From Candidatus Aenigmatarchaeota archaeon (GTDB taxonomy: Archaea; Aenigmatarchaeota; Aenigmatarchaeia; GW2011-AR5), in contig JACPRW010000006.1 in the NCBI GenBank assembly GCA_016193585.1, forward strand, positions 64,293 through 128,292: a DNA stretch of 64,000 nt, read 5' to 3'. How positions within the stretch are numbered: position 1 is the stretch's first letter; each line of letters starts with the position of its first letter. Under the pieces are notes generated by a model. That model ran no database searches, was not told the DNA's origin, and saw only the letters and a program-made list of their open reading frames with translations. Positions 7,889 through 42,955 of the stretch are shown here, one piece after another. Position numbers and translations under genes: made by a program.

Positions 7889-10363
7889 CTAAAATCCTCC
7901 GCCTGAAAATTGTTGCTGTGGACCTGGCTGACTAAACTGCTGCTGAGGCGGCTGGTTGAATTGTTGCTGCCCTGGCTGCCCGAATTGCTGCTGAGGCGGC
8001 TGGTTGAATTGTTGCTGCGGTTGATTAAATTGTTGTGGCGGCTGGTTGAACTGCTGCGGTGAGTCTGGTTCGTTGAATCGCTGCTGGGGACCAAACTCTT
8101 CATCACCAAAGTCCTCGGGTGTGGCTCTCGATGTGGTTCTTGACGAACCTCGTGACGATGAGCTCTGTTGGGAGCCGAAGTTCCTGCATTCCTCGAAGTT
8201 TTCAGGGTCGGAGCAGTATTCGGAGCATTCTTCCTCGCTCCTGCAGCCTCCCGGCCCTCCGGCATTTCTGCCGCCCCCATCATCAGGACACATGCCGGGG
8301 TTGTTGTTACACCACTTCATGATTTCTGCGAACGAGCCGGTGCAGTACTGCGGGATGAATTCTTTGGGATCCCCACGCGGCATGCCGAACGCATACTTGT
8401 CAAACGTGCAGGTCATGACATACGGAGGCTCAACGCCAGGAATGAAGCCTGCCGGCGGCCCTGTTTCTTCCGGCAGCTCGGCCTTGACGATGCATGCATT
8501 TCCTTCAAGTCCGGTAACCTCGAGCACCGGACCGTCGCTGCCTTCAGGACGGAATCGCACCGGCTTGCAGACCCTGAACGAGCGCTCAAAGCAGCCGCCG
8601 TCGGTCCCGCAATCTTTGGGCGCTGCGGTTCCCTTTGTTTTTGCCTCGCGCACGCTCGTCGTCAGTTCCTTCACGTCCTCATCAGTGCTCAGCATGAGAT
8701 AGACAATATCCTTGATGACGATATCCTTGATGTAGCGTATGTCGTGCTTGACTTCCATGATATCGTCGACGGTGAGGTCCTCGAGCCTGTCGCTCAGCTT
8801 GCGCTTTATCTCGTTGACCTTGTCCTTAGCCGCTGCGAACATGTCAGAGACGCGGCGGAATTTCTCCTCCTCGGGAGAATTGGTCGACTTGTAATAATCT
8901 GCAATCTCATCAGTCTGCCGCGCCAGCTTGTCCAGCGATATCCTCAGGTTTTCCAGCTTGAATGCGATTGCAAGCAGCTCAGTCGGCTCAGGCACTTCGT
9001 CTATCTGTTCGACTGAAATATCGGCATCGTCGCCGCGATGGATGCATTCGTTGAACGTCACGCAACCGCCTTCGTCGCGCTCCACGACAAGTTCGCCGCC
9101 GTCCTGCTTGCACGCCTGATACGCTTTCTTCGGCACGTCCCTCGCGCAGTCATCGAAGCCGCCACAACGCGTAATCGGGCAGCCGCGCGGGTCAAAATCC
9201 TTGACGATTTCAAGCCCTTTCATCCGGCATTCTTCCTCAAGCCGCTTTTTGAATTCAGGATTGGCCACTTCAGGGCACGCGCGCTGTTCCTGCGCACTGC
9301 ATCGTATAACCTTGCATCCTTTTTCGAATCTGATCATGACCGGAATGTCAAGCTTTTTGCACTTTTCGTCAATAGCCCTGAATTCTTCCGGTGATGGGCA
9401 CTTTCCCCGCTCGAACGGATTGGCTCTTTCCTCACCGAGCTCGCAGAAGAAGGACTCGCATCCTGAGGAGTCTTTCTTTGTTACCGGCGTCCCGCCCTCC
9501 TTCCGGCACTTGTCGAAGAGTTCTTTCTCCGGCGGCGGGCACTGGCGGTGGATTTCTTCCTCGCATATAACTTTCACGAATCCGCTCTGGGGGTCTTTTT
9601 CCTCCCTGCATCCTTTCGGCGGCGGGCACTGGTCGCACCCACAGCCGTCGCGGGACCTGAAGCAGCCGACCTTGCTGCCGTCAGGACAGGTGATGGAATC
9701 AGGGCACTGCGGCCCTGACCGGCAGTCCTGCGGGCAGTTGACGCCATCCTCGCCTATGTCGCACCGCTTGTCGCCGCAATACGCCCCCTTTCTCCCGCAA
9801 TCGTCCTGGCAGTTGTCAGCATTTTCGCCCTGTTCGCAAATGCCATTGCCGCAATCATGAAACTGTGGTACCGGTTCACAGAACGTATCAACATGACACC
9901 CTCTGCTGTCAAAAGATGGTTTGGGTACTTGCCCCTGTCCGCATGTCCTCGGCTGCGGCGGGGGTGGGCATGACGGACCCGGTTGTGGAGGAGGCGCTGA
10001 GGTTGTTGTGGTCGTTTGCGTGGTACTGGGAACAGTCGTGGTTGTGGTGGCCGTGTCTCCTGTTACTGGAACGGTAGTTGTCGTGGTTGCAGGCGGCACG
10101 GTTGTGGTGGTCGTGTCTCCTGTCGATGGAACAGTCGTGGTTGTGGTTGCAGGCGGCACGGTTGTTGTCGTGGTAGGCGCCGCTGTGGTGGTCGTTGTTT
10201 CCGGCACCGTTGTTGTCGTGGTAGGAGGAGCCGTTGTGGTGGTCGTCTCAGGGACGGTGGTAGTGGTCGTTTCCTCTTGCGCGAAGGCAACTGAAGCAAG
10301 AAGGATTACTGCAAGTGAAAAGAATAACTGACCGTACAGAAACTGTTTGCGATTGTGCGCCAT
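7889..10363 (-). CDS. Large exported Cys-rich surface protein
   Basis: About 824 aa from MAHNRKQFLYGQLFFSLAVILLASVAFAQ (signal peptide). Then come ~110 residues of TTTTTVPP-type linker, a probable O-glycosylated stalk. Next is a Cys-rich region of many modules, including two GNGICEQGENADNCQDDC / CGDKRCDIGEDGVNCPQDC repeats of the Myxococcus-type Cys-rich class. A helical, probably coiled-coil domain (LLAIAFKLENLRISLDKLARQTDEIADYY...) follows, then a further Cys-containing domain and a low-complexity QQQFNQPPQQ tail. No C-terminal TM is seen. I cannot assign a specific ligand. It is likely co-transcribed with the small lipoprotein downstream. Confidence 0.8.
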   Translation of the reverse strand: MAHNRKQFLYGQLFFSLAVILLASVAFAQEETTTTTVPETTTTTAPPTTTTTVPETTTTTAAPTTTTTVPPATTTTTVPSTGDTTTTTVPPATTTTTVPVTGDTATTTTTVPSTTQTTTTTSAPPPQPGPSCPPPPQPRTCGQGQVPKPSFDSRGCHVDTFCEPVPQFHDCGNGICEQGENADNCQDDCGRKGAYCGDKRCDIGEDGVNCPQDCRSGPQCPDSITCPDGSKVGCFRSRDGCGCDQCPPPKGCREEKDPQSGFVKVICEEEIHRQCPPPEKELFDKCRKEGGTPVTKKDSSGCESFFCELGEERANPFERGKCPSPEEFRAIDEKCKKLDIPVMIRFEKGCKVIRCSAQEQRACPEVANPEFKKRLEEECRMKGLEIVKDFDPRGCPITRCGGFDDCARDVPKKAYQACKQDGGELVVERDEGGCVTFNECIHRGDDADISVEQIDEVPEPTELLAIAFKLENLRISLDKLARQTDEIADYYKSTNSPEEEKFRRVSDMFAAAKDKVNEIKRKLSDRLEDLTVDDIMEVKHDIRYIKDIVIKDIVYLMLSTDEDVKELTTSVREAKTKGTAAPKDCGTDGGCFERSFRVCKPVRFRPEGSDGPVLEVTGLEGNACIVKAELPEETGPPAGFIPGVEPPYVMTCTFDKYAFGMPRGDPKEFIPQYCTGSFAEIMKWCNNNPGMCPDDGGGRNAGGPGGCRSEEECSEYCSDPENFEECRNFGSQQSSSSRGSSRTTSRATPEDFGDEEFGPQQRFNEPDSPQQFNQPPQQFNQPQQQFNQPPQQQFGQPGQQQFNQPPQQQFSQPGPQQQFSGGGF

Positions 10364-17095: not shown

Positions 17096-17113
17096 GGGCT
17101 TTGTTTAAGAAGT
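17096..17113 (+). repeat. Left terminal inverted repeat of the insertion element
   Basis: GGGCTTTGTTTAAGAAGT, an exact inverse of the right end. It lies 19 bp after the subtilase stop codon and 20 bp beyond the transposase stop. Confidence 0.9.
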
Positions 17114-17132
17114 CTGATTTTGCCTTGACATT

Positions 17133-18365
17133 TTAAACATCCTCCTCACTTTTTAAACAGAAATTGGGTTGTATTCCCAATTCATGCATTTCCTGAATTA
17201 TCACGCAGATGTTGTGGCAAAGAACCTTTAACAGAATTTCGTTTATTTGTGCTGTCTTGTCCTTGCTTCTTACTTTCGTGCCGAATTTTGCTTTTATCAT
17301 ACTGAATGTTGTTTCAATGTTAGACCTCGCATGATAGTGGTCTAAAAATCTCTCCCTGTTATATTCAAAATAAAGCCACATCTTTCTCCAGAGCCTGCAT
17401 CCCTTTGATGTGCGTTTTGTATTTTTCTTGAATGGGATGTAAGGCAAGGCATCGTATTCATTGACTAACTTGAAGTTCTTTCTGGACAAATACGCCTTAT
17501 CTGCAAGCACCTCAAAGATGCCAAAGTTCTTTCCTGTCTTATTCACTAATTCTGGAAGTATCGGGCAATCATTCGCATAAGCATCTGTAACTTTTATTCC
17601 TGTAATTATGTTTGTTTTCACGCCACAAATGGCATGGGCTTTGAGCCATATTCTCTTGTCCATATCCTTTCCGTATTTGGCATCAAACCATCTCTTGTAT
17701 TGGATTGTAGCAAAACCTGTGCTATCAACAGCAAACTTAGCCTCGCATCCCTTTAGAGGCAGACTGGATATTTCTATAAGTTTTTCCAGAATAGAAGTAA
17801 GTTCTTCATTTCTCATGTAATTGCTAATGCTGGAATAACAGCATATAGAATCAACAAAGCCTTCTTCGTGGGCTTGTCTCATGTCAGAAATAAACCTTCT
17901 ACAAGAGAATCCAGTATAAACCTTCAAAGCGGAAGCAAATACCATTTCGCCGAAAGCCATTTTAGGTCTGCCAAACTGATAATCTGGATTATCAATATTG
18001 CCACATAAATCCGCAAGCAGTCTCATGAATAGGTCTTTCTCATGTGTTTGTGCCTTGTTGTAGGCAGTCCAATTTTGCGGATATGTTATCCTCATGCTTT
18101 TTTCTATTGTGACATTTCCCTCCGAATCTGTTGTTTTCGTGATTATGAACTCCACTGCAAAACAATGTTTGCATGGCTGATGCCTTAGTTCGTAATCAGG
18201 GCAACTGCACTGCGAATGATAGCCATCTGAAATTACGAGGTATAGCCCCATACCGCTTTGCGATGGAACTAACCATCCTTCTTCTGTTTTCTTTATCTTG
18301 CAGTTCTTGGCAATTTTTAAGCCTCTCTGCTTTCTGACTTCATTTTCAATTTCTATTGTTTGCAT
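17133..18365 (-). CDS. DDE transposase with N-terminal SWIM zinc finger
   Basis: 410 aa. Residues ~50-75 form a SWIM finger (CSCPDYELRHQPCKH). The catalytic domain follows, with DSTGF for the first Asp, VLADKAYLSRKN for the second and RSNIETTFSMIKAKFG for the Glu, the IS4/IS5-like 'D...D...E with N-IE...K' layout. The SWIM finger probably binds DNA ends. The frame is intact, so the element may still be active. The gene ends 20 bp from the left inverted repeat and reads away from the passenger genes. Confidence 0.9.
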   Translation of the reverse strand: MQTIEIENEVRKQRGLKIAKNCKIKKTEEGWLVPSQSGMGLYLVISDGYHSQCSCPDYELRHQPCKHCFAVEFIITKTTDSEGNVTIEKSMRITYPQNWTAYNKAQTHEKDLFMRLLADLCGNIDNPDYQFGRPKMAFGEMVFASALKVYTGFSCRRFISDMRQAHEEGFVDSICCYSSISNYMRNEELTSILEKLIEISSLPLKGCEAKFAVDSTGFATIQYKRWFDAKYGKDMDKRIWLKAHAICGVKTNIITGIKVTDAYANDCPILPELVNKTGKNFGIFEVLADKAYLSRKNFKLVNEYDALPYIPFKKNTKRTSKGCRLWRKMWLYFEYNRERFLDHYHARSNIETTFSMIKAKFGTKVRSKDKTAQINEILLKVLCHNICVIIQEMHELGIQPNFCLKSEEDV

Positions 18366-18469
18366 CTTATCACCTTACTTTTATAGTATATGAATACATA
18401 ATAATATACAGATAAATATATAAAGCTTACTTACCAAATAATATACTATATAAGTATGATGTGATTTGC
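18366..18469. promoter_or_regulatory. Divergent AT-rich promoter region of transposase and zinc-ribbon gene
   Basis: 104 bp separate the two divergent starts. TATA-like stretches occur on both strands: TATAAGTATG and ATATACTATATAAG toward the zinc-ribbon gene, and TTTATATATTTATC toward the transposase. The near-palindromic ATAGTATAT/ATATACTAT could be an operator or a shared regulatory site. Confidence 0.55.
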
Positions 18470-18640
18470 ATGGGCAAGGTCAAGATTTCAGTTGATGGTT
18501 ATAGGTGCGAAAGATGCGAATATCAGTGGATACCACGCAAGGCAGACTATCCGAAAGTCTGCCCTCGCTGTAAGAGTCCCTATTGGGATAAGGCACGGAA
18601 AAGACCTGTTCAAGCAGATGCAAAGAAACTAAAAGTTTGA
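18470..18640 (+). CDS. 56-aa zinc-ribbon protein (passenger or partner of transposase)
   Basis: Too short for the track. MGKVKISVDGYRCERCEYQWIPRKADYPKVCPRCKSPYWDKARKRP... shows a CERC...CPRC ribbon with a basic tail, a common archaeal miniprotein form. It starts 104 bp from the transposase start on the opposite strand inside the element. It could regulate transposition or be an incidental passenger. The 18641-18925 stretch after it has a track ORF (18637-18957) with no recognisable motif and holds nothing I can call. Confidence 0.75.
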   Translation: MGKVKISVDGYRCERCEYQWIPRKADYPKVCPRCKSPYWDKARKRPVQADAKKLKV

Positions 18641-18925
18641 GATATATAATAAGGGAATCAGGTGGCGGTGCTTCCAATTCACAGCTTCCACGCCTCCGTT
18701 GTGGTTTCGTGCGGGTTGTTGCCCGCTTGTCATCGCTTCGTGGCTTGGGCATGTGTTGGTTGCGGGGAACGCCATCATCATTTTCCCTTCTCAATATATG
18801 CATAGAGTCTTTATATTCTTATCTGTTTTCAGCGATTTTCATCTATCCGTTTTCTGCTCTTATTTTAGAAGAGAAACGATGGGAAGCTTTAAATAGATTC
18901 CTAATTATCTTGTGGAAAGATAACT

Positions 18926-19603
18926 ATGTCAAAAATAGGAAATTACGAATACCCTGATTTGCGGGTTAGTGATGCTATAGACTTAGCTAAAAAATTCCAT
19001 GAGAAATTAAATGGAACTACACAAAGTCCTGATGCATTAGCTGGTGCTTGGGGACATAGTAGTGCGAAAAGTGGCACTTTCCTCGTAAAATTAGGTGCTA
19101 TGAGGAAATATGGTCTTATAGATGGCAGAGGTCAGAGTCTTGCATTGTCATCATTAGCCGAAAAAATACTATTTCCAAAAAAGGATGAATATGATGTCGC
19201 AGTAAAAGAAATGATATTCAAAATAGACATTTGGAAGAAACTATATGAAAGATTAAATGGTAAAGAACCAGACTCAAACTTCTGGATTATACTCCAAGAA
19301 ATTACCAATATTGATAGAGCCACGGCAAACGCAGAGGCAGATAAAATCAGTAAGTTTTATAAAGATGTCTTGTCATATTTGAAAGCAGGCGATACTAAAA
19401 TGTTCAATCAATCACCCACTCCTAATTTAGAACCTGATTATAGTGGCTCTATGCCATCTGCAGATATTCACAAGATAGACTTTGAAGGAATACTGATGCG
19501 TATTCCAAAAGAACATAATTCTATTGACACTGCTATAGAGCTTCTTCAGATGCTAAAGAAAAAGGAATCAACACGGCAAACGAGCAAAAGTAAAAAGGAA
19601 TAA
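18926..19603 (+). CDS. DUF5343-like winged-helix protein (passenger)
   Basis: 225 aa. The N-terminal half (YPDLRVSDAIDLAKKFHEKLNGTTQSPDALAGAWGHSSAKSGTFLVKLGAMRKYGLIDGRGQSLALSSLAEKIL) has the sequence pattern of DUF5343-like winged-helix domains. The rest is helical, with a polar C-terminal region ending in a Lys/Ser-rich tail. A TATA-like CTTTAAATAG lies ~30 nt before the start. DNA binding is inferred from the fold only. It converges on the 356-aa gene, leaving 97 bp between the stops. Passenger status and proximity suggest the two may work together. Confidence 0.65.
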   Translation: MSKIGNYEYPDLRVSDAIDLAKKFHEKLNGTTQSPDALAGAWGHSSAKSGTFLVKLGAMRKYGLIDGRGQSLALSSLAEKILFPKKDEYDVAVKEMIFKIDIWKKLYERLNGKEPDSNFWIILQEITNIDRATANAEADKISKFYKDVLSYLKAGDTKMFNQSPTPNLEPDYSGSMPSADIHKIDFEGILMRIPKEHNSIDTAIELLQMLKKKESTRQTSKSKKE

Positions 19604-19700
19604 AATTATAACTTACTACAAAGTAAGCGCAACCTTGGTATAGGGTACGCTGTAATAGTTAATTATATCAGTAAAGTATATAAGCATTCAGTGTAGGAAA

Positions 19701-20771
19701 CTACACCGACTTTTTAACCTCTTTTGAGATGGTTGAAATATCAAAACTCTTAAGTGATTTTCCCATTTTCTTCAAGGTTTCTATGGCTTTTTTACCTTCG
19801 TCAGAGAAATATACTGCATAGTCACCATTTTGTATCAATTGCGTATCTTCTTCTGACTTAAAAAATTTGACACACCCATCTAACATATTAGCAAATGTAA
19901 ATATAGTGTCCATTGTAGGTTCATTCTTTAGAGCTTCAGATGAAATAAATTGGTTCTTATCTTTGAAAACAAACACAATCGGATGTTTGTATCTATCTTT
20001 TACACGAATATTTTTAGAGTGCAGAGGAATTATTTTCCTGTAATGATATCCGCTAATTGAGTATTCGTAAACCTTATTATTCATTTCAGGCAATACAGAT
20101 CTAAAATTACCATATTGAATAAACTTCTTTTGTTTAGCGAGTCGTAGCTCTACGAGTTGTAGTGCTATATCAGCAGTAGAAATTAATGGATTACACTTAT
20201 CTCCACTTGGATATACGTGTATTGGTATATCACTTATTTCTTCCCATGCTTCTGTAATTCTACCCTGAAAACTATCAAGCATGGGTGTTATTCCATTTTT
20301 AATTAAGAAATCTTTTATTCTCCATACACATACGTAAGGAAAATAGTTATTCAGATGCTTTTCTACCAATTCATCAAAGTTCAATACACTATTTGAGAGT
20401 TTATGTTTAAGTTCTCTTTCCAATCTACCAAATGCCAAAGGAGTATCATCTTTTCTGAATAATGTATAAAATATATTAACAGCTTCTATTGAGGATGATA
20501 TATTTCTCCAAAATATCTGGTGAATAGGTATCCCACATTGAGCAAATATTTTACAGAAATCATAATTGCAATAAATAAACTTATCTTTGTCAATTCCGCA
20601 CGATTTTAATGTGGCATCTATAGCATTATCATACATATCTTTGAATTCGGAATAGTTTTTTGTAGAAATTCCACACCCTAAGACGCACTTAAAACTTTTT
20701 TGTTCGCCCGTATCTGGATGTATCCACTCTTTTTTAACTAAAATTGAGTCTATACCAATAGCTGATTCCAT
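19701..20771 (-). CDS. Unknown 356-aa passenger protein, possibly RNase H-like
   Basis: I do not recognise this protein with confidence. It begins GIDSILVKKEW and carries spaced acidic segments (KFIYCNYDFCKIF, ITPMLDSFQGRITEAWEEI, PLISTADIALQLVELRL). That order, with strand-Asp and a late 'AD' on a helix, recalls DUF3800/RNase H-fold proteins, but this is inference. The C-terminal third (from about 250) is mixed alpha/beta. Codon use is AT-rich like the rest of the element. It reads toward the DUF5343-like gene. A defence or maintenance role is only suggested by its location in a mobile element. Confidence 0.6.
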   Translation of the reverse strand: MESAIGIDSILVKKEWIHPDTGEQKSFKCVLGCGISTKNYSEFKDMYDNAIDATLKSCGIDKDKFIYCNYDFCKIFAQCGIPIHQIFWRNISSSIEAVNIFYTLFRKDDTPLAFGRLERELKHKLSNSVLNFDELVEKHLNNYFPYVCVWRIKDFLIKNGITPMLDSFQGRITEAWEEISDIPIHVYPSGDKCNPLISTADIALQLVELRLAKQKKFIQYGNFRSVLPEMNNKVYEYSISGYHYRKIIPLHSKNIRVKDRYKHPIVFVFKDKNQFISSEALKNEPTMDTIFTFANMLDGCVKFFKSEEDTQLIQNGDYAVYFSDEGKKAIETLKKMGKSLKSFDISTISKEVKKSV

Positions 20772-20963
20772 TATAGTAAATAGACAAAAATAATTAAATA
20801 GATATAAAATTCTGTAAAGTTGTTTATTAACACTTACGCAATAGGCATTTTTAATCTTTTAGAAATATTCAGCAAGGCTATTATTATTGTTCTATTGTCT
20901 GTCATAGTAAATATATACTTGAATGACTTTTTAAACAAAAACCCGACTTTCTAAACAAGTGCC

Positions 20964-20981
20964 ACTTCTTAAACAAAGCCC
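20964..20981 (-). repeat. Right terminal inverted repeat of the insertion element
   Basis: ACTTCTTAAACAAAGCCC, the exact reverse complement of the left end. It is preceded by two more (T)TTAAACA / CTAAACA repeats within 35 bp. Confidence 0.9.
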
Positions 20982-20997
20982 CCCCTGTTGTATAACC

Positions 20998-21867: not shown

Positions 21868-22058
21868 GATTTGCACAAGATATGGTGAATTGCACTAGTT
21901 ATGTCCTGATATTATTTGCAATTCACCTATAGAAAATTGCGCGTTAATACGACATAAGCTGCGCAATTATCTATATGTTACATGATATCGTGCAAATTCT
22001 ATATATCTATATAGCGAATTGCATTTTCATGTTGCACACCCAATGCAATTCTCTATAA
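21866..22058 (+). repeat. Three-hairpin array with outer closing stem, copy 1
   Basis: Outer arms AGGATTTGCAC (21866) and GTGCAAATTCT (to ~22000) enclose two hairpins: GGTGAATTGCA/TGCAATTCACC and AATTGCGC/GCGCAATT. The loops contain TATGTCCTGATATTA and TAATACGACATA, which are near reverse complements of each other. A third hairpin follows at 22012-22054 (GAATTGCATT/AATGCAATTC). The second copy at 42478-42660 differs by paired, compensating changes. The stretch 22059-22296 beyond it holds no convincing gene; two minus-strand track ORFs there look like relic or shadow sequence. Confidence 0.85.
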
Positions 22059-22296
22059 GTTGAAGGCAACCCGCGTAAAAAGTTCATAGAAAAATCCAAA
22101 ATTTGCGAAGCAAAGCGATGAGTTGACTCGTCTGTTTTGAAAAGGGAACGTGCCGCCGGCTGGACTCCGGGTTCTGTTTGGAATGTTTCGGCCGCTTCTT
22201 GATGTCTCTGTAGATATAGGCTGATAGAAACTTCGCATGCATAGGTCAAAAAGCTTATATACTAAAGTGAATAGTATTATTCATTAAGTGAATATA

Positions 22297-22920
22297 ATGA
22301 GACAGGAAACTGCATTAAAAATAATCGCTCTTCTGAGGAAAGATTTAGATAGGGGTATTACTATTCTTGAAATATCAAAAAGGCTTACGATAGGCTACAG
22401 GCCTGCTTACAATCATGTAAGCACTATGGAAAAAGAAGGCATAATAGCAATTAATAAAGTAGGCAATGCAAAACAATGCTTTCTAAACTTAGAGAATGCT
22501 AAATGCAGGCATTTTCTGGCTGAAACCGATATGCTCAGAAAAGAAGAGTTGCTAAAAACGAACCAGAAACTTAAAGCTGTTCTTGAAAACCTAACAACAA
22601 AGTTAAACGAAACAAATATAGCAGACATTCACTCCATAGTCCTGTTTGGTAGCTATGCAAAAGGTACGGCAACTAAATCATCGGATGTAGACCTTTTGTT
22701 TATTGTAGCCGACATAAAAGACAAATCTGTGAGAGAAAGGATAGAGCGTGAGTGCGCGGGCTATCAGTATTCTCATAATGTCAAAGTAAGCCCGCTGATT
22801 ACTGATGTAATAGAATTCAAAAAAATGCTGAAATCAAAAGAATTAAATGTCGGTAAAGAAGCAAGAGCATACGGGTTGCCTTTATACGGTTCTGAAGTAT
22901 TCTGGAGGCTGATGGCATGA
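22297..22920 (+). CDS. Winged-helix-minimal nucleotidyltransferase fusion (MNT antitoxin-like)
   Basis: Start set at ATG 22297 (MRQETALKIIALLRKDLDRGITILEISKRL), nine bases inside the GTG-initiated track ORF. Residues ~1-70 are a winged HTH. Residues ~105-150 carry the nucleotidyltransferase signature GSYAKGTATKSSDVDLLF (GS...DxD). In HEPN-MNT modules the MNT protein neutralises the HEPN RNase, in characterised cases by adding AMP residues. The extra HTH would let it also act as its own repressor. Its TGA overlaps the next ATG (ATGA), which ties the two genes together translationally. AT-rich. Confidence 0.85.
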   Translation: MRQETALKIIALLRKDLDRGITILEISKRLTIGYRPAYNHVSTMEKEGIIAINKVGNAKQCFLNLENAKCRHFLAETDMLRKEELLKTNQKLKAVLENLTTKLNETNIADIHSIVLFGSYAKGTATKSSDVDLLFIVADIKDKSVRERIERECAGYQYSHNVKVSPLITDVIEFKKMLKSKELNVGKEARAYGLPLYGSEVFWRLMA

Positions 22921-23477
22921 AAAGAAGCGAGTTTCTGAAAAGAAAGATTGCCAACTATCTGAGAAAAGAACAGCTTTTGAAAAAGCAGGAATACACGAAG
23001 CTTGAAAAGCCGTTTCTGGCAAAGGCGAGGAAGAACTTTGCACTTGCAAGCCTCATGTTCAAGATTTCTGAGCAGGATGACTTCAAAAAAGCACTGGAGC
23101 TCCCAGAATCATTCGAAACATACGAATGGGTTATCATAGTTTCATATTACGGAATGTATACGTCTGCGTTAGCTGCATTAGCAAAGCTGGGTTTCAAGTC
23201 AAAAAGCCACGCTGCAACTATAGCTGTGCTTGAACATCATTATGTCAGAAAAGAGAAGCTGAAAGCGAAGCATGTAGATAATCTGTCAAAAGCATATACA
23301 CTAAGCGAGAAGCTCATAACAAAGCTGGTTGAAACGAAAACAAAAAGAGAAACAGCACAGTACGATGCAACACCGGCTATCTCAAGAGAAATGGCGAAAA
23401 CCGCGCTGGCGGACACAGACGAGTTTGTAACGAAAGTTGAGGAAATATTAAGCAGTTATAGCAATACAAGGAAATAA
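22917..23477 (+). CDS. HEPN-domain protein (partner of MNT; putative RNase toxin)
   Basis: 186 aa, helical. A four-helix HEPN pattern is visible: KPFLAKARKNFALASLMFKIS, then YEWVIIVSYYGMYTSALAALAKLGFKSKSHAATIAVLEHHYV, then KTKRETAQYDATPAISREMAKTALADTDEFVTKVEEIL. The active-site region reads RETAQYD, as in UPF0332-like HEPN proteins, rather than the strict RxxxxH of strong HEPN RNases, so nuclease activity is uncertain. The 4-nt overlap with the MNT gene is typical of this toxin-antitoxin class. Confidence 0.8.
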   Translation: MKRSEFLKRKIANYLRKEQLLKKQEYTKLEKPFLAKARKNFALASLMFKISEQDDFKKALELPESFETYEWVIIVSYYGMYTSALAALAKLGFKSKSHAATIAVLEHHYVRKEKLKAKHVDNLSKAYTLSEKLITKLVETKTKRETAQYDATPAISREMAKTALADTDEFVTKVEEILSSYSNTRK

Positions 23478-23506
23478 ACACGATATGACTTCCTTGTTTG
23501 CTATAT

Positions 23507-23549
23507 GTGAAACAAGAAGTAATATGTCGGTATTATTTTCTTGTTTCAC
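23507..23549 (+). repeat. Stem-loop with conserved TATGTCGGTATTA loop
   Basis: GTGAAACAAGAA and TTCTTGTTTCAC form a 12-bp stem around GTAATATGTCGGTATTATT, followed directly by TATAAAA. The loop matches the one at 664-703 although the stems differ. It lies between the HEPN gene and the small membrane gene. Confidence 0.8.
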
Positions 23550-23621
23550 TATAAAATGATGTTATCGTTATTGTAAGGGCTTATATCTTTATTTGAAAAA
23601 TTAACATAGGAGATAAGAAAA

Positions 23622-25020: not shown

Positions 25021-26166
25021 ATGCAACGCCGCTATCCGTACGAGTTCGACCCGAAGAAGAGGAAGCGTGCCGAGCAGTACCGCCGGGGGAAGCTGCACCT
25101 GTACGGCATCGGCCTGCTCGTTTCCCTTGCAACACTGCTTTCCGTGCTTGTGTCAGGGCTGCATCTCGTCATCCGCGACGTCAGCCTGCACACGCCGTTC
25201 CCCGCTCTTGCCAACGGGCTGCTCGTCCTTGCAGTGCTTACCGTCGCCCAGCTGCCGGTCACGTTCTACTCGACGTACGTCTACGAACATGCATTTCATC
25301 TGTCGCGCTACACGCTTGCCAGATGGGCGCGCGATTTTCTGAAGTTCACCCTCGTCCAGTACGCATTCGCGCTTGCCATGATAGGGCTGCTGTACGCGTC
25401 CTTCGGCATGTTTTCCCCGTGGTGGGCATACGCAGGCGTCGCGTTCCTGTTCCTCTCCGGCCTGATGAGCTACGTCTTCCCGGTCATCGTGCTGCCGTTC
25501 CTGTGGAAAACCGAGCCGTACGCTGACGAAGCCATGAAACGAAAGCTGCTCCGGCTCTGCAGGAAGCTGGGAGTCACCGGCATACAGAACGTCGTGGTCA
25601 TCAGGGAGAGCGAAAAGTCGGTGAAACCGAACGCCGTTTTTGCCGGGTTCGGCACCACGAAACAGATAGGCCTCTACGACACGCTGCTCACTGCATTCAC
25701 GCGCGACGAGATAGAAACGGTCATCGGCCACGAGCTGGGCCACTGCGTCAACAAGGACATAGCGCGCAGCCTCCTGCTCGAGGCGCTCCTCATTTTCCCG
25801 CTGCTCTTCATCATCGACAGAGGCGTCGCGTTGTTCGGCCCGGCTTTCGGCGTGGCAGCAATCAGCGATGGCGCGTCGCTGGCGCTCATCGCCCTGCTCT
25901 ACGGCTCGCTCAATTTCATGCTCATGCCCATCACCAACAGCTACTCGCGCCACCGCGAGGCGCATGCCGACGCGTTCGCGCTCGAGCACGTCCGGAAGCC
26001 GCTTGCCCAGATATCGGCTGAAAAAAGGCTTGCCGACATGCACCTGGCTGAACTGGAGGCGCACCCATTGACAGAATTATGGCTCCTCTCGCACCCGCCG
26101 ACCATCAAGCGCATCAGGATGGCCGAGGAGTGGGAAGAAAGGCGCAAAAAACGGATATATAGCTGA
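25021..26166 (+). CDS. Membrane zinc metalloprotease, M48 (Ste24/HtpX-like)
   Basis: The start is MQRRYPYEFDPKKRKRAEQYRR (25021), 20 codons inside the track ORF, giving 381 aa. Several N-terminal TM helices with the M48 N-terminal pattern (YVYEHAFHLSRYTLARWARDFLK) lead to the HELGH zinc motif (VIGHELGHCVNKD). The third ligand Glu is probably in SRHREAHADAFAL. M48 enzymes degrade misfolded membrane proteins or process prenylated peptides; the former is more likely in an archaeon. Confidence 0.9.
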   Translation: MQRRYPYEFDPKKRKRAEQYRRGKLHLYGIGLLVSLATLLSVLVSGLHLVIRDVSLHTPFPALANGLLVLAVLTVAQLPVTFYSTYVYEHAFHLSRYTLARWARDFLKFTLVQYAFALAMIGLLYASFGMFSPWWAYAGVAFLFLSGLMSYVFPVIVLPFLWKTEPYADEAMKRKLLRLCRKLGVTGIQNVVVIRESEKSVKPNAVFAGFGTTKQIGLYDTLLTAFTRDEIETVIGHELGHCVNKDIARSLLLEALLIFPLLFIIDRGVALFGPAFGVAAISDGASLALIALLYGSLNFMLMPITNSYSRHREAHADAFALEHVRKPLAQISAEKRLADMHLAELEAHPLTELWLLSHPPTIKRIRMAEEWEERRKKRIYS

Positions 26167-26256
26167 CCAACTTAATATTCAGGTATTACACAAGTTGGTC
26201 ACCTATAGTGAACCAAGTTATAATATCCGGATTCTTTACTTGGTTAACTATAAATA
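26164..26256 (+). repeat. Two adjacent stem-loops abutting the histone-gene TATA box
   Basis: Stem-loop 1 (26164-26201) has TGACCAACTT/AAGTTGGTCA around AATATTCAGGTATTACAC. Stem-loop 2 (26207-26251) has TAGTGAACCAAGT/ACTTGGTTAACTA around TATAATATCCGGATTCTTT. The loops are variants of one theme, and the second stem is the one used at 565-604. The second ends in CTATAAATAG (26248-26257), a TATA box about 50 nt before the histone-fold gene. The first overlaps the protease stop. Confidence 0.8.
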
Positions 26257-39911: not shown

Positions 39912-40175
39912 TTTAATACCCTGCATTCGACGCTTGGCTTTTCGAATGCATCGTATCCCATTTTATTTATTAATACCCTGCATTCGACGCTTGGCTTTTC
40001 GAATGCATCATGCTCAGAAAGCATGCGCTTTCCGGCACATCAGAAGCATTGCCTCTGCATGTATTCCTTATTTATTGTTCATTACTTATAGCAGATTGTA
40101 ATAATAATGGAACTTTATATCACAATCTGCTATAGGGAAAGAACATTGTAAAATGTTCCAAAATCAATGTTCTTT
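39912..40175 (-). repeat. Hairpin cluster between atpI and atpK
   Basis: In transcription order: hairpin 40138-40175 (AAAGAACATTG/CAATGTTCTTT), hairpin 40087-40134 (TATAGCAGATTGT/ACAATCTGCTATA), then two short modules near 40015-40060 (CAGAAAGC..GCTTTCCGG; CAGAAGC..). Two direct copies of a 36-bp unit (39915-39951 and 39970-40006; GCATTCGA/TCGAATGC stem) follow. There is no gene in the 318-bp gap. It probably sets RNA processing or stability between the atpI and atpK cistrons. Confidence 0.8.
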
Positions 40176-40182
40176 ACTATTA

Positions 40183-42322: not shown

Positions 42323-42345
42323 AATATCCCCCGCTCCGCGTGTCG

Positions 42346-42475
42346 CGTTCAGAAAGCATACACTTTCTGACGCCTCGAAGAGCTCCGCTCTTCAAGGTAT
42401 CCCATAGTATGCCGTGTCGTGCTCAAAGAACCTGTGAAGTTCTTTGGCACAGCAGAAGCATTGCTTCTGCATGTA
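42346..42475 (-). repeat. Modular hairpins upstream of atpH
   Basis: Four short stem-loops in a row: CAGAAAG/CTTTCTG, GAAGAGC/GCTCTTC, CAAAGAAC/GTTCTTTG and CAGAAGC/GCTTCTG. They follow the purine arm-C / loop / G-pyrimidine arm rule seen in the trees. No open frame of note. Any leader of the ATP synthase operon would be transcribed through them. Confidence 0.75.
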
Positions 42476-42477
42476 TT

Positions 42478-42660
42478 AGGATTTGAACAAGATATATGGT
42501 GAATTGCACTGGTTATGTCCTGATATTATTTGCAATTCACCTATAGAAAATTGCGCGTTAATACGACATAAGCTGCGCAATTATCTATACTACGATCATC
42601 ATTCAAATCCTATATAGCGAATTGAATTTCCGTGTAGTGTAAATAATTCAATTCTCTATA
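42478..42660 (+). repeat. Three-hairpin array with outer closing stem, copy 2
   Basis: Nearly identical to 21866-22058 in the first two inner hairpins. The outer stem has changed from TTTGCA/TGCAAA to TTTGAA/TTCAAA, and the third stem from GAATTGCATT/AATGCAATTC to GAATTGAATT/AATTCAATTC. In both cases the pairing is kept. The third loop is unrelated to copy 1. The two copies are 20 kb apart in unrelated contexts. Confidence 0.88.
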
Positions 42661-42710: not shown

Positions 42711-42955
42711 TTATCTTGAATGCCTTGAAAACTGCTGCCTTCGTACAAAAGACTTCCGTGAAGTCTTTTGGCGACTTAGGTTAATCCTCGATTAACCTCA
42801 AGTCAGGCAGCAGATGCAACACAAGGCATTCGGGATCTTCAAAGAGCTCTGCTCTTTGAGATCTCAACTGCGGAAAGCTTCCACTTTCCGCAGTTGCAGA
42901 TGCCATGCTCCACGGAAACCACCGACTTCAGTCGGTGGTATACAGGAGCATATCA
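42711..42955 (-). repeat. Core-family hairpin element, copy B (largest clean tree)
   Basis: Minus strand: TGATATGCTCCTGTATA, then ACCACCGACTGAAGTCGGTGGT and GGAGCATGGCAT. A first insertion follows (CTGCGGAAAG/CTTTCCGCAG and CAAAGAGC/GCTCTTTG), then GAATGCCTTG. A second insertion lies inside GCTGCC/GGCAGC (AGGTTAATC/GATTAACCT and CAAAAGACTTC/GAAGTCTTTTG), before CAAGGCATTCAAGATAAC. All insertions lie at loop positions of copy C and keep perfect nesting. Confidence 0.88.

Follow-up and report, generated by a model that had tools for sequence, protein, structure and literature searches.

At several places in the window, by which we mean the whole 64,000-nucleotide stretch of contig JACPRW010000006.1 that was analysed, hairpins with unlike stems share versions of one loop and are edged by TATA. 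This raises the question of whether they are promoters or operators that spread ready-made, as the original prediction proposed, or elements of another kind whose TATA edges have a different origin.

Hairpins with variable stems and a common loop

All five hairpins that had been reported were present when the sequence was checked, and all of them folded far better as single-stranded DNA than shuffled sequences did (z from -3.2 to -7.9). Perfect pairing, which had been claimed for every stem, was found in three of them (10-12 bp), while the other two carry a bulge or a mismatch:

23507-23549, + strand: hairpin E, right-hand half of element N-E; 12-bp perfect stem GTGAAACAAGAA, loop GTAATATGTCGGTATTATT; covariance model score 65.4 bits
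564-605: hairpin with a perfect 11-bp stem
26164-26201: hairpin with a perfect 10-bp stem
660-707 and 26206-26250: hairpins with imperfect stems (bulge or mismatch) and at most 8-10 bp of continuous pairing

The suggested search of the genome with the loop motif bore the prediction out: with at most one mismatch allowed, ATATGTCGGTATT[AC] has 32 matches in the 1.17-Mb genome and its reversed control none, and every place read belongs to a hairpin element, complete or truncated. TATA-flanked hairpins numbered 175 in 336 kb, compared with one in locally shuffled sequence, these 336 kb being genome stretches picked around matches and not a random sample.

Organization of the two-hairpin elements

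We demonstrate that the hairpins are halves of a larger element with the plan TATAG-stem1-loop1-stem1'-TATA-stem2-loop2-stem2'-CTATA and a length of about 91-145 bp. As loop2 is approximately the reverse complement of loop1, the two hairpin halves together make up an inverted repeat. The 336 kb around the matches contain 145 element islands totalling 21.8 kb, with about a dozen stem families, and some copies bear short hairpins between the two halves (the m block), other such inserts being found in relatives. The window holds the following copies, among which those at 21883-21973, 42497-42587, and 40089-40179 and the partner hairpin at 23459-23503 are additional to the hairpins first reported:

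563-707, + strand: element A-m-B, 145 bp; hairpin A 563-607, short-hairpin insert m about 608-659, hairpin B 660-707; TA at 561-562 and 708-709
21883-21973, - strand: element G-F, 91 bp; TA at 21881-21882 and 21974-21975
22008-22057, + strand: single TATA-flanked hairpin H, stem GAATTGCATT; similar hairpin at 42611-42660
23459-23551, + strand: element N-E, 93 bp, which includes the hairpin 23507-23549; TA at 23457-23458 and 23552-23553
26160-26250, + strand: element C-D, 91 bp; C 26160-26205, D 26206-26250; TA at 26158-26159 and 26251-26252
40089-40179, + strand: two-hairpin element of the GGAAC/GTTCC loop class, 15 copies; TTA at 40086-40088 and 40180-40182
42497-42587, - strand: second G-F copy; TA at 42495-42496 and 42588-42589

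Copies of A-m-B are carried by tens of other sites, and G-F has 51 matching pieces in the genome, with most full copies 97-99% identical. Hairpin H is probably a relic related to the two-hairpin elements. Two of the window elements provide the stop codon of a gene that they shorten: N-E cuts the 3' end of the upstream HEPN ORF and supplies its stop (23475-23477), and the M48 protease ORF upstream of C-D ends, at 26166, with a TGA stop that the element provides. The HEPN ORF truncated by N-E belongs to an MNT-HEPN type pair at 22288-23477, composed of a nucleotidyltransferase with a winged helix and the HEPN protein. Another class of short hairpins, with stems of 6-8 bp (e.g., GGTAAAGC-TTT-GCTTTACC) and TGTACAG or GTGCACC linkers, is located at 608-659, 820-930, 42340-42460, and 42740-42940; here and in relatives, variants of this class form cargo between the halves of the mobile elements.

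Mobility and target site

It had been supposed that the elements could spread, and they do, being multi-copy, nested, and flanked by a duplicated TA, with near-identical copies (97-100% identity). TA stands on both sides of the elements, the rejoined flanks read WTAW, and the dinucleotide is duplicated at the insertion point, with TNA duplicated in some families; one family displays matched 3-bp duplications, TGA/TGA or TAA/TAA, exact in seven of nine cases. Nested insertions, each with one extra TA, comprise A-B in the loops of F and G, N-E in that of A, and G-F in those of A and D. Because uninterrupted copies of the interrupted hosts are abundant, the empty site is known; in F it reads GGACA-TA-ACCAG, and once filled, the site carries a TA to the left and to the right of the insert. 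These insertions demonstrate both the mobility of the elements and their target, while their nesting in loops is no proof of a loop preference, since TA is nearly absent from the stems. The matched duplications are true target duplications, for which a DDE-type cut-and-paste enzyme is to be expected and HUH transposition is not.

The elements are short and non-coding, end in terminal inverted repeats, duplicate their target, and occur in many copies, and they constitute a new variant of miniature inverted-repeat element (MITE). We therefore propose, with a probability of roughly 0.78, that TA-targeting miniature non-autonomous transposons, moved in trans by a putative transposase, have the hairpins as their terminal inverted repeats. 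Such an enzyme would recognize as the end the terminal TATAG together with the conserved loop on a DNA hairpin, either extruded or read as a dyad, and would cut the element out and paste it at TA. Pasting at TA would create TATA at both junctions, and the promoter-like edges would be a by-product of target plus end sequence.

Co-variation of the stems and distribution among relatives

A search with the loop only, run on 145 genomes, stayed at background level except in the genome of origin; it is uninformative because loops drift between species, and a covariance model was needed, which was built from nine hairpins. This model gave at least 143 matches in the genome of origin. Among 58 relatives, it was positive in 16 of the 18 genomes of the same family and, elsewhere in the order, in five genomes belonging to the two families f3 and f4, with no match in the families f2, f5, and f6; all 28 genomes from the rest of the class, outside the order, were negative. 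The GenBank titles of the matching contigs name Candidatus Aenigmatarchaeota. Stem patterns of the genome of origin matched nothing in collections of genome contigs or viral contigs, while a stem pattern from a relative matched Aenigmatarchaeota MAGs; two further viral scans, plasmids, and phages returned no match. Such elements are not reported for Candidatus Aenigmatarchaeota in the literature that we searched, and they would add a large, order-wide superfamily of mobile elements to this DPANN lineage with genomes of about 1 Mb.

Co-variation at the DNA level is demonstrated by 138 matches in relatives, aligned by fitting to the structure, in which 96.7% of the stem cells are paired (71% in shuffles) and 280 cells hold double changes (67.5 +/- 6 in shuffles). 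Independent alignment of 38 right-hand hairpins with MAFFT gave 98.0% paired cells versus 79%, and 62 double changes versus 16.7. G-U cells (16) are rarer than mismatches (42) among 1292 cells, which favours a DNA hairpin or dyad over RNA. Part of the pairing could stem from a mutational process that perfects palindromes and not from selection. The right-hand loop, ATAATATCCKGATTATTT, is conserved across the order, and the originally described combination of variable stem and conserved loop thus extends well beyond the window. This combination makes it plausible that a protein recognizes the loop, with a transposase as the most likely candidate. A more far-reaching idea, tentative and on balance doubtful, is that the ends are recognized mainly by shape, as an extruded hairpin with an almost free stem sequence and a conserved loop; one enzyme would then move many sequence families, and stems would drift freely with compensation. 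In these elements nature supplies a collection of DNA hairpins with variable stems and constant loops, on which structure versus sequence reading by a transposase becomes directly testable.

Search for the mobilizing enzyme

The genome of origin, which is 91% complete, yielded no transposase with such ends; Y1_Tnp, DDE_3, and Resolvase were among the families searched there, and none of the three matched. In relatives, apart from HIT-type proteins, the search of ORFs for an HUH-type transposase motif returned nothing but isolated matches that look like chance, and no autonomous copy was seen in 616 kb. The sole intact DDE transposase, at 17133-18365, is nearest to IS5 and has a SWIM zinc finger; it was rejected as the parent, as different ends are indicated by its inverted repeat GGGCTTTGTTTAAGAAGT, located at about 17098 and at about 20968-20985. 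Together with three passenger ORFs, it forms a transposon at about 17098-20985 that is represented elsewhere in the genome by fragments only. The only lead to the parent is a decayed DDE gene at L206:1650-2230 (IS982/IS5-like, weak matches), which adjoins a TATAG hairpin and is interrupted by a two-hairpin element; this is the only candidate for ends that the MITE would have in common with an autonomous IS in the same genome. A solo copy of the L206 hairpin is located at L076:1412-1468.

Comparison with known elements

Among elements already described, the Correia/NEMIS repeats (CREE) of Neisseria come closest (PMC2649163, PMC2229807). These are non-coding, about 105-155 bp long, end in TATAG[CT]G, duplicate TA, and are moved by an enzyme that is unknown; their short and long forms differ by an insert of about 50 bp, and promoters form at their ends (PMC2649163). 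The likeness lies in the TATAG[CT]G ends, the TA target, and the size classes, and the Correia terminal repeat TATAG[CT]GGATTAACAAAAATCAGGAC resembles the ends described here; the family itself is defined by a 26-bp repeat, TATAG[CT]GGATTA...TCAGGAC/CCGGTAC. When our ends were compared beyond TATAG with Correia repeat sequences (from PMC2649163), the mean score was reached by 0 of 400 shuffles and the best single score by 73 of 400, so that the average similarity exceeds that of shuffles, the best pair does not, and the comparison falls short of demonstrating common descent. In contrast to Correia/NEMIS, the elements have an archaeal host, each end is a covarying hairpin, one genome holds many stem families, TNA is duplicated in some families, and the positional bias is toward gene ends, not starts. 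A link to the long-unexplained Correia elements is possible. RUP and other TA-flanked MITEs have been attributed to IS630 (PMC2229807). RUP is similar in its length of about 107 bp, terminal inverted repeats, TA target, intergenic location, and nesting in other repeats; the present elements differ from IS630 or Tc1-mariner MITEs, which duplicate TA only and depend on a DDE_3 transposase, in that DDE_3 is absent, the ends are hairpins, and some families duplicate three bases (TNA).

REPINs and REPs are tagged palindromes in inverted pairs with complementary stem changes, and they lie near gene 3' ends (PMC3733652). It is unlikely, yet worth weighing, that the elements are of this kind and move as single strands by a Y1/HUH transposase (RAYT or IS200/IS605-type) that recognizes a tagged hairpin. 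Each consists of two inverted hairpins with the common base tag TATAG, to be compared with the REP tag GTAG (PMC3733652), their stems change in complementary fashion at the DNA level, and they too lie near gene 3' ends. In the left hairpins, a T four pairs up from the base is recurrently extra-helical. Hairpin ends with an extra-helical T are what is recognized in IS200/IS605. However, the tag is not GTAG, the loops are long (15-22 nt) and conserved, the target is duplicated, and matched TGA or TAA duplications are unexpected from HUH transposition. Moreover, the searches reported above yielded neither a Y1_Tnp (RAYT or TnpA) gene in the genome of origin nor an HUH-type transposase in the ORFs of the relatives examined, and, unlike in IS200/IS605, the loops are inverted and not parallel. 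We retain transposition by a TA-targeting enzyme acting in trans as the preferred reading.

TATA boxes and position relative to genes

The original prediction was to be tested by whether the hairpins cluster within 60 bp of start codons. The 224 ends of 112 intergenic islands were compared with control WTAW sites, using mechanical ORF calls with approximate starts. Only 21 ends (9.4%) lay within 60 bp of an ORF start versus 13.3% in the control (p = 0.10), and stops were enriched instead, with 18.3% of the ends within 60 bp versus 9.7% (p = 0.0002). The enrichment at stops and the stable folds would suit a structured RNA, that is, terminators or 3'-end stabilizers that spread with genes and are selected as RNA hairpins. 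This account is very improbable, given the near absence of G-U pairs (16 of 1292 cells), the occurrence of both orientations, also inside each other's loops, and the fact that Rfam covariance models at the gathering threshold matched only a tRNA in the window.

The TATA noticed at the stem edges is indeed there, and it is found at every junction because the WTAW target adjoins ends reading TATAG and CTATA, the duplicated TA completing the box. At 557 and 26249, where gene promoters had been placed, the rejoined flanks (cagcttaTAaaagg and ggataTAaatag) already contain a TATA-like box, so the insertion regenerated the box and did not bring it. Least credible of all is a regulatory role in the host, in which selection would keep the hairpins at gene starts as promoters or as operators bound through the loop: junction TATA boxes near some genes (557-563, 26249-26256, L178:2453-2459) and the conserved loop speak for it, but starts are depleted or neutral, the elements are nested and truncated, 33 of the 145 islands overlap predicted ORFs, and the position test rules it out as a general function. 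The spreading of promoters as a general role is likewise unsupported. Single promoter exaptations are likely, for example at L178:2453-2459, where the junction TATA stands about 24 bp ahead of an ATG. Finally, inverted copies of hairpin elements lie at both ends of a relative's contig (L190:36-169 and 10032-10165), which suggests that these repeats break metagenome assemblies.
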